Below, piece after piece: positions 1,157-18,211 of a stretch of 64,000 bases of DNA. The notes under the pieces are model-generated. The model worked only from the letters and a program-made list of their open reading frames with translations, had not been told where the DNA came from and made no database searches. Origin of the DNA: Candidatus Altimarinota bacterium (GTDB lineage Bacteria; Patescibacteriota; Gracilibacteria; BD1-5; UBA6164); contig JAQVDN010000002.1 in NCBI GenBank assembly GCA_028698305.1, positions 124,001 through 188,000 of the forward strand. Reading direction: 5' to 3'. The number at the start of each line of letters is the position of its first letter. Within the stretch, counting starts at the first letter, position 1. A program made the position numbers and the translations under genes.

Positions 1157-4100
1157 ATGAATTTTAAAGAAGTAAACCCTCGCCAATCTTTCCCAAAACT
1201 AGAAGAAGAAATCCTATCTTTTTGGAAAGAAAATAAAATATTTGAAAAAAGTATAGAAAATAGAGCTGATGCTCCTGAATTTAATTTCTATGATGGTCCT
1301 CCATTTGCAACTGGGACTCCGCATTATGGTCATATACTTGCTGGTACTATTAAAGATGTGATTCCTAGATACCAAACTATGAACGGTTTTAGAGTTGATA
1401 GAAAATTTGGTTGGGATTGTCACTGATTACCTATTGAAAATATCGTAGAAAAAAAGATGGAAATATCTGGAAAAGACGATATAGAAAAAAGAGTTTGAGT
1501 TTATGAATTCAACGAAGCTTGTAGAAGTAATGTTTTCTGATTTGTAGAAGATTGGAAAAAAACTGTTGATAGAATGGGTAGATGGGTAGATATGGAAAAC
1601 TCATACAAAACTATGGATAGTGATTTTATGGAATCTGTTTGGTGGGTTTATAAATCTCTTTATGATAAATGACTTATCTATGAAGGTCATAGAGTAGTTC
1701 CTTATTGTCCTAGATGTAGTACTCCCCTTTCAAATTTTGAAGTAAATCAATGATATAAAGATAAACAAGATAAAACTGTAACAGTTAAATTTAAAGTAGC
1801 TTGAAGTTCAAATAAATATATACTTGCTTGGACAACTACTCCTTGGACTTTGGTTTCAAATCTAGGACTTGCTGTTTGAACAGAGTTAGATTATAGTGAA
1901 TTATTGGACAAAAAAACATGAGAAACTTATGTTTTAGCAACTGATAGAGTTTGAAGTTATTATAAAAATGCTGAAGATTACACTATTGTAAGAAACTATA
2001 AATGAGCTTGTTTAGTTGGTATAAAATATGAACCTATTTTTGATGATTTTTTCATTTTAAATGAAGCAAATTCTATGCCTCTTGGTATGAATTTATGAGT
2101 TAATGCCTATAGTGTTGTTGCTGGTCATCATGTAACGACTGAATCTGGTACTGGTATAGTTCATATTGCTCCAGCTTATTGAGAAGATGATAATTTAATC
2201 GGTAAAGAACAAAAGCTAGGTTTTGTTTCTCATATAGCAGATAATTGAAATACTGAAAATCTACTTACAGATAACTGAATCCCAGTATTTGAATACAATG
2301 AATTAGCAATAACAAAATTAAAAGAAAAAAACGCAACTATTTTGATAAATACTTATGATCACTCATATCCACATTGCTGGAGATGTGATACTCCTCTTAT
2401 ATATAGAGCAATTTCTGCTTGGTATGTAGCTGTTGAAAAAATAAGAGATAAAATGGTTGAAGCAAATAAAAATATATCTTGGGTTCCAGGAGAAATAAAA
2501 GCTTGAAGAATGTGAAAATGGCTTGAATGAGCTCGTGATTGGAATATTTCTAGAAATAGATATTGGTGAAGTGCAATTCCAGTTTGGCAAAGTATTGACA
2601 AAAGTGAAGAAATTTGTATATGAAGTATAAAAGAACTTTATGAATTAAATAAAGATTTCTGACAAATAAAAGAAGTAAATGGTAAATATTTTTATACAGA
2701 TACAGATAAAGAAGTAGATATTCATAAACATTTTGTTGATAAAATATTTGTAAAAGATATTAGTAAATTTGAAGCTAAAAATATATTATTAATTCATTGA
2801 AGATGAAGTGATATATCAGAAAAAAGAATATTGGATATTAAAAATGCTTTCTCAAAAGATTGAATAAATTTAGACTTATATCAATTTGATAAATCAGATG
2901 ATCCTACTTATGAGTCATGGAAAGAAACATTTGAAAAAATAGATTTTTCAAAATATGATACAATTTATACAAGATCAATGTGATGAGCAATGACATTAAG
3001 CTATATAAAAGAAAACAATATAAAAATAAAAAGACTTGTATGTGTTGCACCTTGAAAATCAATTAATTATTGAAATGAAGAAAAGAAAAATTCATCTAAA
3101 ATGTATAATGATTTATATGAAAATAAATATGATTTTTCAGAATTAATTGATGAATTTACTGTAATTCATAGTAAAGATGATGAAATTGTAAGATTTGAAA
3201 ATTGAAAAGAATTTGCAAATAAATTTTGAGCAGATTTTATTGAGATTGAAAAATGATGACATTGATTAGATGAACATAATAATTTATTAACATGATTAGT
3301 TAGATTTTGAACTCCACTACAAAGAGTTCCAGAAGTTCTTGATTGTTGGTTTGAAAGTTGAGCTATGCCTTATGCAAGCAAACACTACCCTTTTGAAAAA
3401 GACTCTAGTTTTAAATTTCCTTGAGATTTTATAGCTGAAGGTCTTGATCAAACAAGAGGTTGGTTCTATACTCTTATAGTTTTATGAGTTGCATTGTATG
3501 ATGTTGCTCCTATGAAAAATGTAATAGTAAATGGTATAGTACTAGCTGAAGATGGGCAAAAAATGTCGAAATCAAAGAAAAACTACCCAGATCCACAAAT
3601 AATATTTGATAATTATTGAGCTGATGCAATGAGATTTTATCTTATGAATTCTCCTGTAGTTGAAGCACAAGATTTGAGATTTATGGAATCATGAGTTGAA
3701 GAAGTAGTTAAAAAAGTAATTCTTCCATTATGGAATACTTATAGTTTTTTTACAACTTATGCAAATATAGATAACTTCTCCCCTCGCCCATTGGGAGAGG
3801 GGTTGGGGGTGAGGGCTCTAAAAAATAATCTTGATAAATGGCTGATTTCAGAATTAAATGAATTAACAAAAGAAGTAGGAAAAGGTTTTGATGAATATAA
3901 GCTTAATGAAGCTGCAAAACCAATAGTTAAATTTATGGATAATTTAACAAATTGGTATATAAGAAGAAGTAGAAAAAGATTTTGGAAAACTGAAAATGAC
4001 ACAGATAAATTAGAAGCTTATGAAACTCTTTATTTTACACTTGTTGAAACTTGTAAAATAATTGCTCCATTTATGCCTTTTGTAAGTGAACATATTTACA

Positions 4101-12450: not shown

Positions 12451-12492
12451 AAAAATATCTCAAAAATATTATATTTTTTGAGATATTTTTTT
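12451..12492 (+). terminator. Terminator after peroxiredoxin gene
   Basis: Long stem AAAAATATCTCAAAAA with its complement and a T-run, about 90 bases after the stop. The 90 bases between hold no visible gene or RNA. Confidence 0.8.
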
Positions 12493-12534: not shown

Positions 12535-15500
12535 ATGTCTCAAGAATCTTTAAATAGAAATAATTCAGATTTAATAGCTTGATTAAAAAATCTAATATCA
12601 TCTGGAAACTTATCAGAAGAAGAGATAAGAGAAATTCAACTTGCTTTAAACGAGTTAATGTGATTATTAGATGAAAAACAAGGTGAAATAACTAAAAGAA
12701 AAGAAGAAAAAAGACTAGCATTATTAAAATCTTGAACAAAACCACCAATCTGACTTCAATCAGAAAGATGAAGTATTTTTATGAGTATGTTTATTACTGA
12801 AAATAAAAGAAAACCAGAAACAAGAACTGAATTTGCTGAATATATATTAGCAAATAGAAGTAAATTAAAGCAAGATTTTCAGAAATTTATAGAAAATAGA
12901 AGATGAAAAGTTAATAATACTTTAAAATTACAACAAAGACCAAAACAAGATTATTCTGATTTTTATGCTTATATAGTAGAACAAAGAGAAAAATTATGAT
13001 TAAAAAAGTTTATTTCTCTTGATACATTTAATTCATATATTCAATCAGTAGTTGTTTTGGGAAGAGATATTTCATTTGATGATTTTTTGAAATTTATGAC
13101 AAATAAAGAACTATCTTTTGCTCACAGTATAAAATCCCCAAAAGTAGATCAAACTATAAAAAATCAATGATCAAATCTAGCTCAATGAATTACTGAAATT
13201 GTTGCAAATGCAATAGATGCTTATCATCAAGATAACAAAATCTCAAGATTTTGACAATGATTTTATCAATCATTAAATTTTCTTGCTTGAAAGGATGATT
13301 TATTGACTGTAAAAACAAAAAAGCAGTGAAATAATTGATTTGAAGTTCAATTTAGAAATATTATTTGAGTAGAATTATCAACTCAAAATATAGAAAAAGA
13401 ATGAATATGAACAGAAATTGAATTAAAAAGAAAATTATCACAAGAAGAAATAAAAGATTTACAAGATTTTATAAAACTTAGATTTAGAACAACTGAAAAA
13501 GTGGATTTGTATTTAAATTGAGAATTAATTAATTCTAATTGATTTACAAAAATTGATTGAAATATTTATGAATCTGATAATAAACCAAGAGTAGATGTGA
13601 ATATATGAACTGAGTGATTTAAGGTTATTGATAATTGAATTTGAATGGACAGTAAGACAATTGCAACAAAACTTATTTATCCAAAGAAAAAAAATAATAA
13701 ATTTAAAAAATTAAGTGATAAAGAAACTAAAGAAAAAGTCCCAAATGAAGTAGATTTAAAAGTAAAAAAATGAAATTCTCCAAAATCAAATGTCAGACTT
13801 CAAATAGCTGGAGTTTGTATAGAAGAATTTGAATTTGAAAAATCTTGAGAAATTGATGAATTAATTATGGAATTACCAAGTTTTACTTGGCTTCCAGATT
13901 CAAGAAATACTATAGTTCCAACTAGAGATATAGTTTTTGCAATGGAGTATTTTATGAACTACATAAATACTCAAAATATTTCATTACAAACAAAACTTGA
14001 TTTTGTAAGTTTAATTTGAAAAATTGCAAAGAGAATTAATCAAAGACCAACAGATGAATCAAAAAATGAACATAATCTTTCTTTTGTAATGAAAAAATGA
14101 TTTGAACAATATAAAAATAAAATAACTGAAAGTTGAAAAATAGTTTTACCTTACTCACAAGATTTATTTTCTGTTTTTAGTTGAAATGAAAATATAGTTT
14201 TTGTTTGAGAAGAATTTGTTTCCCTTAATTTAGAATCTATTCCTGGAATAAAAAGGATGATAAATGTTGTAGATAATACAAAACCTTTTTATGAAATAGA
14301 ATTTCCTGAAAATTTTCAAGAATCATTTATAGAAACAAATTCTTGAGTTTTAGTTAATTCAAGATATACAAAAGATGAAAAATCGGTTAATATATTAAAT
14401 GTTTCACTAAATTTAAAAATATATTGAGAATGACAAACTCTATGAGAAGTAAGATTTTTTGATGTTTCAAAAGTAGTAGAAAATCTAAATTTAGAATGAT
14501 GATGGAAAGTTCAAGAATTAAATAAATTAAAAGAAAGTTCAAAAGCAAATAATTATACTTATTTTTTATTAAGTATTTCAGAAAGTCCAGAACAATTTGA
14601 AAAATTTATGTTTCATTTTGACAGATTATCTCAAGTTGCTAATCCAAAAGAATTTTTTATAAATTTAAGAAATTATGAAAATTTATGAATAAGGAAAGTA
14701 GTTTCAAATTTAGAATTATTATGAGAAGAATTGAGTCTTAATGAAATAGATTTATGAAATTGATATAAAATTATAGATGAAAAACTTTATAATGATTCAG
14801 GAGAAATTTTGTCTGGACCACCAATTCGGGATTTTTATGTTTTGGCTGATTGAAGTTTTACTGTGAATGATTTTTTATTTAATTGAAAAACAAAAGAGTT
14901 TAAAAATCTGAAACTATTAGAAGTAATAAAATATAAATGAATAATATATTATTTTGAAAAATCAGATAGGACTAACTATTGAAGTGAATGGAAAATATAT
15001 AAGTTACCATGATTTGATGAATATGGTACAATAAATGACAAAAGACTTATTACGGGAACAAAATATTATTTAAGTTACAATTCTTCATGAAAACCTTATT
15101 TAGTATTTGAATATCAAGGTAAAGATAAATATTATGTAGGATTAGATGATTTGAGTTCTATACATGAATTAAAAGAGTGATATGTATTTAAACGTACAGA
15201 AAAGCCACCAGAAACGTTTACTTTACAATGAATTACATGATCTTATGAAAATATATTTCAAAAACCAAAGATACTTAGATATAGTGGATATGAATTTAAT
15301 TTTTCTTATAAATTATATGATGTAATTAATTTACCAAATTGAGATGTTGCAATTTATACAAATAGTTGTGTATTTTATTTAAATGAATTAATAAAATGTT
15401 GATGAGTATTAAAAACAGAAGTTCTAAAAAATAGAATTGATTTATGAAATTGAGTTATTTTATTTATAACAGAAAAATGAGTTTATGATGTTAATTGAAT

Positions 15501-17985
15501 ATTATTAGTTGAAAATAATAGTATAAAAAATATTTATAAAAGAAACGATGATTCTTTTATAATCGGATATAGTATTTCTAGAGATATCCATAGTTCAACA
15601 TATTATATCTATGATAGTAAATTATGACAAAGCTTTTTAGATTATTCTTGATTATATTTTGCATCTGATATAGATAATTTTGCATTTACAAATATGCATC
15701 AAAGACTTAAATCTTACTGAGAAGATTTATATGATGATTATTTTAAATGAAAGCAAAATATTTGAAATTATGTGTTATTATCAGATTTATCAGATGAGCA
15801 ACTTGTTTTTTATATGATTTTTTGATATTTTGATAAAACTGATAATACTAAATTAAAAAATATCATAGAATTTTTTAGAGATGCAAATAATGATATAAAA
15901 AGAATCTATAAAAATTTTGTTTCAGAAAATACTAAGTATTATATAATTAAAGATAATATAATTGAAGATAATATAATTGATATATTATATAATGCAATAT
16001 TAATAGCAAAGGAAAATACAAATTATTTTGTAGAAATGTTTAATAATTGGACTTATTCTAAACAAAGAAATTTTAAAGAATATTCTAATGATAAAAATAC
16101 TAAACTACCAGAAAATATAAAAACTTTTTATGATTTACTTTTAACTTGAGCTACAAAGTTTAAAGATTGAAAAACAAAGATAGAAGATTTGAAAAATCCT
16201 CAAATAAAAACAACTCTTTCACAAATTATGTGAATAAGTAGATTTCATAATAATAATTTAAAAACTATTTCTTGAATTGATTGATTAAAATATTTATTTT
16301 GAAAAACAGTTTTTACTGATCTATCATTATATCAATGAGAAATTTATTCAACTATAGAATGACAAGATAGATCAAGTATGATTTGGATAAGAGAAGTAAT
16401 TCAAAATAGTCTTGATGCTATTTTAAAAGATCAAAATGAAAATAAAAAAATAAATATTGATTTCTTCAAACAAGATTGATATTGGACCACATCAGTAACA
16501 GATAATGTTTGAATGAATTTATATGAAGTAATGAATTATTTACTTGTTCCTTGAGAAAGTTGAAAACAAAAATGAGAATGAGAATGAATGTTTTGACAAT
16601 GATTTTATTCTTTGGCAATCTGAGCTAATCTTATAAAAGTTAAAACTTCAAAATGAGATTGAAAAATTATATATCTAGAAATGATTCCTATTTATAGTAA
16701 TGATTGATTTATTATAGACTTTGATATAAATATTGAAGAAAAAAATGAAGATTTTAAATGAACAATAATTGAAAGAGTTGATGAGGATAATTCTTGAGTA
16801 GAAATAAAAATGGCTATATGAACACAAATGTTGCAAAGATATACTTGATGTATAGAAGATGTTGATGTAAATCTTTGAGATGAAAAAATAAATAAACCAG
16901 AATATAAAAAATTTTTATTTTGAGAAAATATTCCTGAATTATGAGAATTAAAACTTTTTAAGGCATTAGATGGCATAGAAAGACTAAATAAAAAATGACT
17001 TTATGTTTCAGAATTACCAGAAAATATGTTGTCGTTTTTCCCTAGCTGGATAATAAAAATACTAAAATCATCTAAATTAATTTTAGAACTTCCAAATTGA
17101 GTGGAACTTACAAAGTCAAGAAATGCTATAAAAAGTTTTGAAGATAATTTCGCAAAAATTAAACCTTATTTATTCAGAATAGTTATTAAATACATAATTA
17201 ATAATGTAAAAAATAATGATATTGTTTGATTACCAGTTGATTATACTCAAAATATTTGATTTGATATATATATGCCATCAAGAGTAAAAACTTACAAAGA
17301 AAATATAAAATATTTTACAATATTAGCAAAATATTGACATATAAATGATTGAGTTATTTCGTATATTTCAGAAACTGATATTCAAAGAAACAGAATTGAT
17401 GATTTAGTTGTAAGATTTAATTCTTGAGAAAATTTTTGAGAACAAGAAATAAAAGAAATATTTAATTATCATAATTTTTGACAATTTATCACTTGAGTAA
17501 AAGTTGATTGATATAGTATGTTTGATTCAAAAATAAGTTATATAAAAAACTTAGCTAATTATTTAGAAAAACAAAATATATGAATAGAAAAAGAAGAAAC
17601 TGAAATAAGTCTTACTAGTGTGAAAGAAAAATTATGAGTTACTATTGAACAAATAAATTGATTTACTTCTTTTTTAAAATCATATTTTTCAGAAATTATT
17701 TCAAGAAAATTTAGTTGAAATTTAAAATTTGCATTTTGAATAAATAAAGAAGAATCTATAGCTTATGCTATAAAATGATGAGAAACTGTTTATTTTAATG
17801 TAAACTATAGCAGATTGAAAGACTTTATTTTAAACCCAAAATGAAATATAAAAGAATTGGTTGATATAGTGACTCATGAAATGGTTCATTGCTTAGAAAA
17901 TCCAAATGATTGGTGAACTCATACCACTTGAAAACATTCTAAAAGTTTTGAGAGAATGCAAAGAGATTTATTAAATATGTTATAG
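12535..17985 (+). CDS. Giant protein with two GHKL (Hsp90-like) ATPase regions and a SprT-like zincin
   Basis: The protein has 1816 residues with no signal peptide or membrane span, so it is probably cytoplasmic. Region one has an N-box-like EIVANAIDAY (residues 221-230), then FGQGFYQSL, and about 120 residues later DNGIGMD (from residue 366). Region two is in canonical order: REVIQNSLDAI (N1291), DNVGMN (1323) and GMFGQGFYS (about 1352-1360). The middle is beta-rich with repeated WD-like short strands. The C-terminus has THEMVHCLE (His1781, Glu1782, His1785) and GKHSKSFERM, matching the zinc-site order of SprT-like peptidases. GHKL pairs recall sacsin or Hsp90 relatives used in chaperone or defence proteins. 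The function is unknown; the domain reading is from motifs only. Confidence 0.85.
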
Positions 17986-18115
17986 ATAAATATATTTTTA
18001 AAATTTAAATTTTATTAATTTCTAAATTCCTATATAAAAAAATAGAAATTTAGCAAATATATGAATAAAACTATATTCATTATAACTATAAAAAACCTCA
18101 ATGAGCAAGAAAAAA

Positions 18116-18144
18116 GATGATTCCTGTTCAATACAGAAATCATC
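18116..18144 (-). terminator. Reverse-strand terminator hairpin
   Basis: GATGATTTCTG pairs with CAGGAATCATC (one wobble) and, read on the minus strand, is followed by a T-run. It lies after a first hairpin at 18172 and may back up termination of the YtxH-like gene. The rest of 17986-18211 shows only an imperfect hairpin near 18021-18053. Confidence 0.5.
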
Positions 18145-18171
18145 TCATAAATATCGATTCTCAATTTTATT

Positions 18172-18205
18172 AAAAAATCCAAAGCAAAAATGCTTTGGAT
18201 TTTTT
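18172..18205. terminator. Bidirectional terminator
   Basis: Perfect stem AAAAAATCCAAAGCA/TGCTTTGGATTTTTT placed just after the stop of the minus-strand YtxH-like gene. Confidence 0.85.
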
Positions 18206-18211
18206 AACTCT

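Follow-up and report, generated by a model that had tools for sequence, protein, structure and literature searches.

The question raised by the 64,000-nucleotide stretch of Candidatus Altimarinota bacterium DNA analysed here (contig JAQVDN010000002.1, positions 124,001 to 188,000; the window) is what a single giant protein that joins two Hsp90-like ATPase regions of the GHKL type to a C-terminal zincin might do, and whether the first ATPase region, whose motifs are out of order, is still an ATPase. Under genetic code 25 the gene is one open frame of 1816 codons, at 12535 to 17985 (+) of the window; counted from a TTG at 12478 the frame contains 112 TGA codons, and because these are read as glycine it is invisible under table 11. 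The gene is present as a single copy in its own genome.

A preliminary description of the locus had claimed two Hsp90-like ATPase regions on one chain, with N-box and G-box motifs occurring twice. Both motif sets are present: ITEIVANAIDA (219–229) and DNGIGM (366–371) in the first module, GHKL1, and REVIQNSLDA (1286–1295), DNVGM (1323–1327) and GMFGQGFYS (1351–1359) in the second, GHKL2; HEMVH (1781–1785) with H1801 within KHSKSF follows at the C-terminus. They are not chance occurrences, since the ATP-site and zinc-site residues are invariant among homologues of 20–36% identity and homologous proteins pass Pfam HATPase_c_3 at 57–73 bits in two stretches. With the HtpG-type profile matches, the two ATPase regions stand; what had been overlooked is the abnormal motif order of the first set. 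We consider it probable that GHKL1 is a catalytically competent Bergerat ATPase in which non-cyclic transposition of the hairpin plus lid has rewired the chain, leaving the lid tethered directly to the middle domain. This arrangement probably originated once in GHKL1, is found in both Gracilibacteria and Omnitrophota, and was either acquired anew or copied in the GHKL2 modules of some Omnitrophota proteins.

Segment order in the first ATPase module

GHKL domains run in the order N-box, DxGxG, lid and GxxGxGF, which GHKL2 follows and GHKL1 does not, although both modules carry all three boxes with the catalytic Glu and Asn (in GHKL2 the DxGxG box lacks one residue). In GHKL1 the N-box (221–229) is directly followed by the GxxGxGF box, RFGQGFYQS (residue 238), and most of the sheet, and the β-hairpin with DNGIGM (366) and the ATP lid comes after the last strand, KVDLYLNGELIN. 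The order of the segments (Table 1) is thus A-C-B-D instead of A-B-C-D, a segment transposition; circular permutation was rejected, as A-C-B is not a rotation of A-B-C. An extra linker stretch between the lid and D is present in every aligned transposed protein. At the level of sequence the anatomy and the transposition are established, and the fold is presumably retained. No permuted GHKL domain was found described in the open-licence papers searched, an absence that is weak evidence.

A hidden Markov model (HMM) built solely from eight canonical-order GHKL1 domains matched five transposed proteins in the model order 11–44, 94–194, 37–86, 209–297 (values for the window). When segment B was moved back in silico, each of the five gave one near-full-model match of 140–156 bits. 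The window GHKL1 rose from 15.3 to 31.8 bits with Pfam HATPase_c_3 (cut-off 25) and from 13.3 to 27.4 bits with HATPase_c, the cut-off being passed solely after reordering; three reordered relatives scored 36.4, 36.9 and 30.2 bits with HATPase_c_3. Random re-insertion controls reached a maximum score with the canonical HMM equal to that of the reordered sequences, the top-scoring ones presumably being insertions near the canonical site.

Block scans of 36 proteins gave two separate spacing groups. In the transposed group the distance from the N-box to C is 17–34 residues and B begins 116–164 residues after the start of C; in the canonical group the distance from the N-box to C is 70–142 residues and B begins 42–107 residues before C. 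E221, N225, D228, RFGxG, GT, DxGxGM and SR are invariant in the five transposed proteins, which come from two phyla and have 26–43% identity to the window protein. These data bear on the idea that GHKL1 is a decayed domain that lost its order along with its function and persists as remnant pieces. Pfam detects part of GHKL1 only, as this idea would have it, but because the residues are invariant and the order and spacing are fixed we regard decay as very improbable. That the segments were misplaced by an assembly chimera or by mis-binning is hardly credible: the sequences are mostly metagenome assemblies, but single open frames carry the same junctions in three patescibacterial genomes and in seven or more from Omnitrophota.

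Table 1. Positions of the giant-protein gene, its segments and domains, and the downstream hairpins in the window
Feature	Residues	Nucleotides	Strand	Remarks
Giant-protein gene	1816 residues	12535–17985	+	Code 25; layout GHKL1 (transposed), middle, GHKL2, zincin
Segment A, N-box helix	205–234	13147–13236	+	ITEIVANAIDA (E221, N225, D228); block HMM 46 bits; invariant among aligned transposed proteins
Segment C, RFGQGFYQS helix, sheet, GTEIEL, last N-domain strand KVDLYLNGELIN	236–354	13240–13596	+	Block HMM 116 bits
Segment B (transposed), β-hairpin, DNGIGM, lid helix	352–389	13588–13701	+	Block HMM 55 bits at this place
Linker joining the moved ATP lid straight to segment D	390–418	13702–13788	+	From block limits
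Segment D, Hsp90 middle-domain-like start, ELPSFTWLPDSRN (Arg457)	419–478	13789–13968	+	Block HMM 79 bits
Middle region	about 640–1190	14452–16104	+	Poorly conserved, variable between homologues
GHKL2, canonical order	1276–1419	16360–16791	+	E1287, N1291, D1294, D1323, GMFGQGF, T1410; Pfam HATPase_c_3 E 2.7e-4
Second D-like stretch LELPNGVELTKSRNAI	1513–1545	17071–17169	+	D-block HMM 12 bits; C-terminal alignment
C-terminal zincin	1729–1815	17719–17979	+	HEMVH 1781–1785, H1801, F1805; candidate SprT-like, E 0.056
Terminator-like hairpin, downstream		18114–18146	-	
Terminator-like hairpin, downstream		18170–18207	+	17 pairs

Likeness to Hsp90 and the C-terminal zincin

The AlphaFold model of residues 141–627 (three sequences; mean predicted local distance difference test score, pLDDT, 65) runs, as expected, through two helices, four strands, a third helix and a further strand to a hairpin and a helix, and its best structural matches are all Hsp90 proteins. 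Model residues 73–196 (A and C) align with HtpG 27–231 with a Z of 8.0 over 116 residues; a Z of 8 alone is modest, but the match list is uniform. The C part (mean pLDDT 47) was too poor for use. The structure prediction suggested in the preliminary description bears out the Hsp90 likeness of the N part at low confidence, and for that reason the position of the moved hairpin within the sheet remains predicted.

Using phmmer, the whole protein found nothing in the PDB, and solely the alignment profile reached HtpG. With hhalign, the canonical relatives align with HtpG at a probability of 99.7 (E 4e-26) across both its N and its M domain, and the arginine of their TDR/SRN motif falls on the HtpG SR arginine, which corresponds to the catalytic-loop arginine R380 of yeast Hsp90. 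The window protein carries the same SRN motif, and together with this alignment it points to an Hsp90-type N–M module with the catalytic-loop arginine in M. The profile of the C-terminal-half alignment also matches HtpG (E 2.7e-11); the native window GHKL2 scores 21.4 bits with HATPase_c_3, just short of the cut-off, and relatives score up to 73.3. The window protein thus shares with Hsp90/HtpG (PF00183) the Bergerat ATP site, the N-box, DxGxG, GxxGxGF and GT motifs and the middle-domain SR arginine, and has its best profile and fold matches there, whereas it differs in the transposed segment B of GHKL1, in having two modules per chain and in ending with a zincin, not a dimerisation domain; PF00183 itself gave no match to the window at E ≤ 1.

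Sacsin, previously offered as a parallel, matches less closely than Hsp90/HtpG. Sacsin and sacsin-like GHKL proteins (PF25794) are likewise giant chains with repeated Hsp90-like regions, but in the window the SACS model matches nothing at E ≤ 1 (one relative reaches no better than E 0.18), and the window protein has a C-terminal zincin instead. A sacsin-like chaperone or structural scaffold, in which the zincin would be a binding domain and proteolysis not its job, would account for the giant size, the repeated Hsp90-like regions and the long variable middle. The missing SACS match and the zinc site, in which H1781, E1782, H1785 and H1801 (together with a Phe and a Gln) are invariant in seven members of 21–38% identity to the window, argue against it, and we consider it unlikely.

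The zinc site has the HExxH motif and downstream third His ligand of SprT/WLM proteins. The SprT-like model matched in three of the seven members and WLM in two (best WLM E 1.6e-4, in relatives), and a zincin profile gave no relevant match among solved structures. The SprT-like/WLM (Wss1-like) zincins (PF10263, PF08325) similarly carry HExxH and a later His (H..F) in a small C-terminal domain; the window domain differs in falling below the Pfam cut-offs and in being fused to GHKL modules. Of the SprT-like zinc peptidase claimed earlier, the ligands and the matches in relatives hold, and the family assignment is a fair lead, with membership unproven.

Distribution and origin of the transposed order

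The combination of two GHKL modules and a zincin, which the preliminary description had not recognised from elsewhere, is not unique to this chain. A search of 60 near genomes found, apart from the window protein, one relative (32–33% identity). In the window's class three of 353 genomes had a member, one of the three being the genome of the window itself; a further match, L008/G137, was first taken as a relative but is plain HtpG. A genome scan found relatives in Absconditabacterales (L009), Oligoflexia (L011) and Omnitrophota (L012); the Oligoflexia genome has three copies, and a second genome from the same phylum has two. The phylum sample of G353 contained a member in two of 330 genomes. 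In 384 Omnitrophota genomes the profile matches giant open frames of up to 9878 residues; matches to Omnitrophota open reading frames (ORFs) of ~620 residues were left aside as being of HtpG size; the HtpG alignment consists of 14 of these and L008. A member with the canonical order is present in one further patescibacterium (G973). Viral contigs, phages and plasmids yielded no relative. On these matches, the combination defines a sparsely distributed family, with members in Patescibacteria, Omnitrophota and Bdellovibrionota.

The transposed order is also found in both relatives from the window's class and in Omnitrophota L067 and L068. Ten proteins have it with clear B matches (≥23 bits), three from Patescibacteria and seven from Omnitrophota; about a dozen further Omnitrophota proteins are transposed with weak B matches, giving at least seven and probably about twenty Omnitrophota giant proteins with this order. 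Four rows of the spacing table call for caution: L072 (canonical, without an N-box match), L070 (weak), L102 (scored on GHKL2) and L101 (transposed, without an N-box match). Relatives in Bdellovibrionota and Omnitrophota, as well as that of G973, keep the normal order. In trees of concatenated blocks, with all sequences put into one order, the transposed forms lie on one side of a branch (support 90/93 with 20 rows and 81/94 with 22 rows), which makes a single origin of the GHKL1 transposition likely, though not proven. That the transposed group spans two phyla implies either great age or transfer between the relatives in Omnitrophota and those in Gracilibacteria.

In Omnitrophota L098 and L099, GHKL2 shows the same kind of transposition (L098 blocks 1–20, 70–139, 35–82), and on reordering each gives a single match, of 50.9 and 43.1 bits, respectively. 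The rearrangement thus happened, or was copied, at least twice. In these two frames (L098:3566-18238 and L099:1-8853) both GHKL modules are transposed, suggesting recurrence or copying between modules.

Giant ORFs of Omnitrophota have been described as having few annotated domains, and a predatory or parasitic role has been proposed (PMC10066038); Hsp90, GHKL, HATPase and peptidase are unmentioned in the main text of that paper. Several of these ORFs carry the GHKL–GHKL–zincin set, some in transposed order, and the window protein differs from them in being smaller and lacking a signal peptide. Vampirococcus giant proteins have also been described, with Hsp90 unmentioned (PMC8080830). L067 (G794:C119), a frame of 6160 residues, has several WD40 β-propellers between its ATPase modules, which score very highly against eukaryote-type families (THOC3, 452 bits). 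L067, L068, L101, L103, L108, L109 and L114 have a common N-terminal region past the signal peptide (NPLRFDFIVDxGxT...KLIKYFLAxLTVPExDxWVNLSPY), which occurs in many Omnitrophota giants, and in L097 a phosphofructokinase-like stretch (PASIDNDVFGTDETIGYDTA) opens the same open frame as the transposed ATPase. The Oligoflexia neighbours at L027:5955-7037, 1662-4037 and 15949-17370 resemble exported effectors: F-box-like, phospholipase D-like and an astacin-like protease (HEIGHTVGLWHEHSR).

A possible ATP-gated protease

The reading that we prefer, at a probability of about 50%, is a stand-alone ATP-gated zinc metalloprotease made from two Hsp90-type N–M modules. The two modules on one chain would act as an internal clamp pair: on ATP binding the lids would close and each middle-domain arginine (SRN) would dock, and the clamp movement would bring clients held on the variable middle scaffold to the SprT/WLM-like zincin at the C-terminus. 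Because segment B has moved behind the last N-domain strand, a linker leads from the lid into the middle domain, and in the first module lid closure may be covalently coupled to the catalytic-arginine domain through this linker of about 27–45 residues. The sequences show the domain content, the transposed order, the kept ATP and zinc residues and the same-order relatives in another phylum; that the fold is kept, that ATP is hydrolysed, that the clamp closes, that proteins are cut and that these events are coupled we infer. Several observations weigh against the gated protease: the shortened DNVGM box of GHKL2, the low AlphaFold confidence in both parts and the SprT-like score of the window, 13.7 bits against a Pfam cut-off of 25.6. 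To these are added the Sec-type signal peptides with which nearly all of the Omnitrophota and Bdellovibrionota homologues with a visible N-terminus start (assigned by visual inspection and hydrophobicity rather than with a trained predictor); these fit an ATP-dependent enzyme poorly unless its site of action is another cell.

These signal peptides are consistent with the same biochemistry placed in another cell, that is, a secreted or injected effector against host or prey, with the ATPases switching on only in the ATP-rich cytosol of the target and the zincin cutting a target protein. Omnitrophota, Bdellovibrionota and Gracilibacteria/Absconditabacteria include predicted predators or parasites, the distribution is sparse in both the class and the G353 phylum sample, and the Oligoflexia paralogues adjoin other exported proteins, including an F-box-like one. 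Against this, none of the Patescibacteria members, the window protein included, has a signal peptide, and no secretion genes were noticed adjoining the gene; we hold the effector as a tentative alternative. PADLOC gave no match for the window protein, and a known defence system is therefore unsupported.

The window gene has a peroxiredoxin gene upstream and YtxH-like and ClpB-like genes downstream. In two relatives of the class the neighbouring genes differ, so the gene most likely acts alone; the survey of neighbours in other Gracilibacteria proposed in the preliminary description is thus in line with its suggestion of a lone gene. The terminator region that it placed here agrees with two terminator-like hairpins downstream (0.0 expected), but the promoter that it gave the gene was not borne out (six promoter-like sites, where shuffled sequence gave 3.1 ± 1.8). 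A separate HtpG homologue is encoded in the same genome (G000:C14:18522-19877, outside the window); its match falls into two pieces, the second of which contains a TAA, and this htpG may be broken or mis-assembled.

To our knowledge, non-cyclic segment transpositions inside one conserved enzyme domain are rare and have usually been inferred from structures alone. Here, the canonical and transposed forms coexist in one family, with clean junctions and an apparent repeat in the sister domain, so the tolerance of the Bergerat fold for another chain path is directly testable, as is the effect of the lid tether on Hsp90-type coupling. An Hsp90-type clamp with a zinc protease would be a first functional reading for some of the largely unannotated giant proteins found in Omnitrophota and in ultra-small bacteria that live as predators or parasites.
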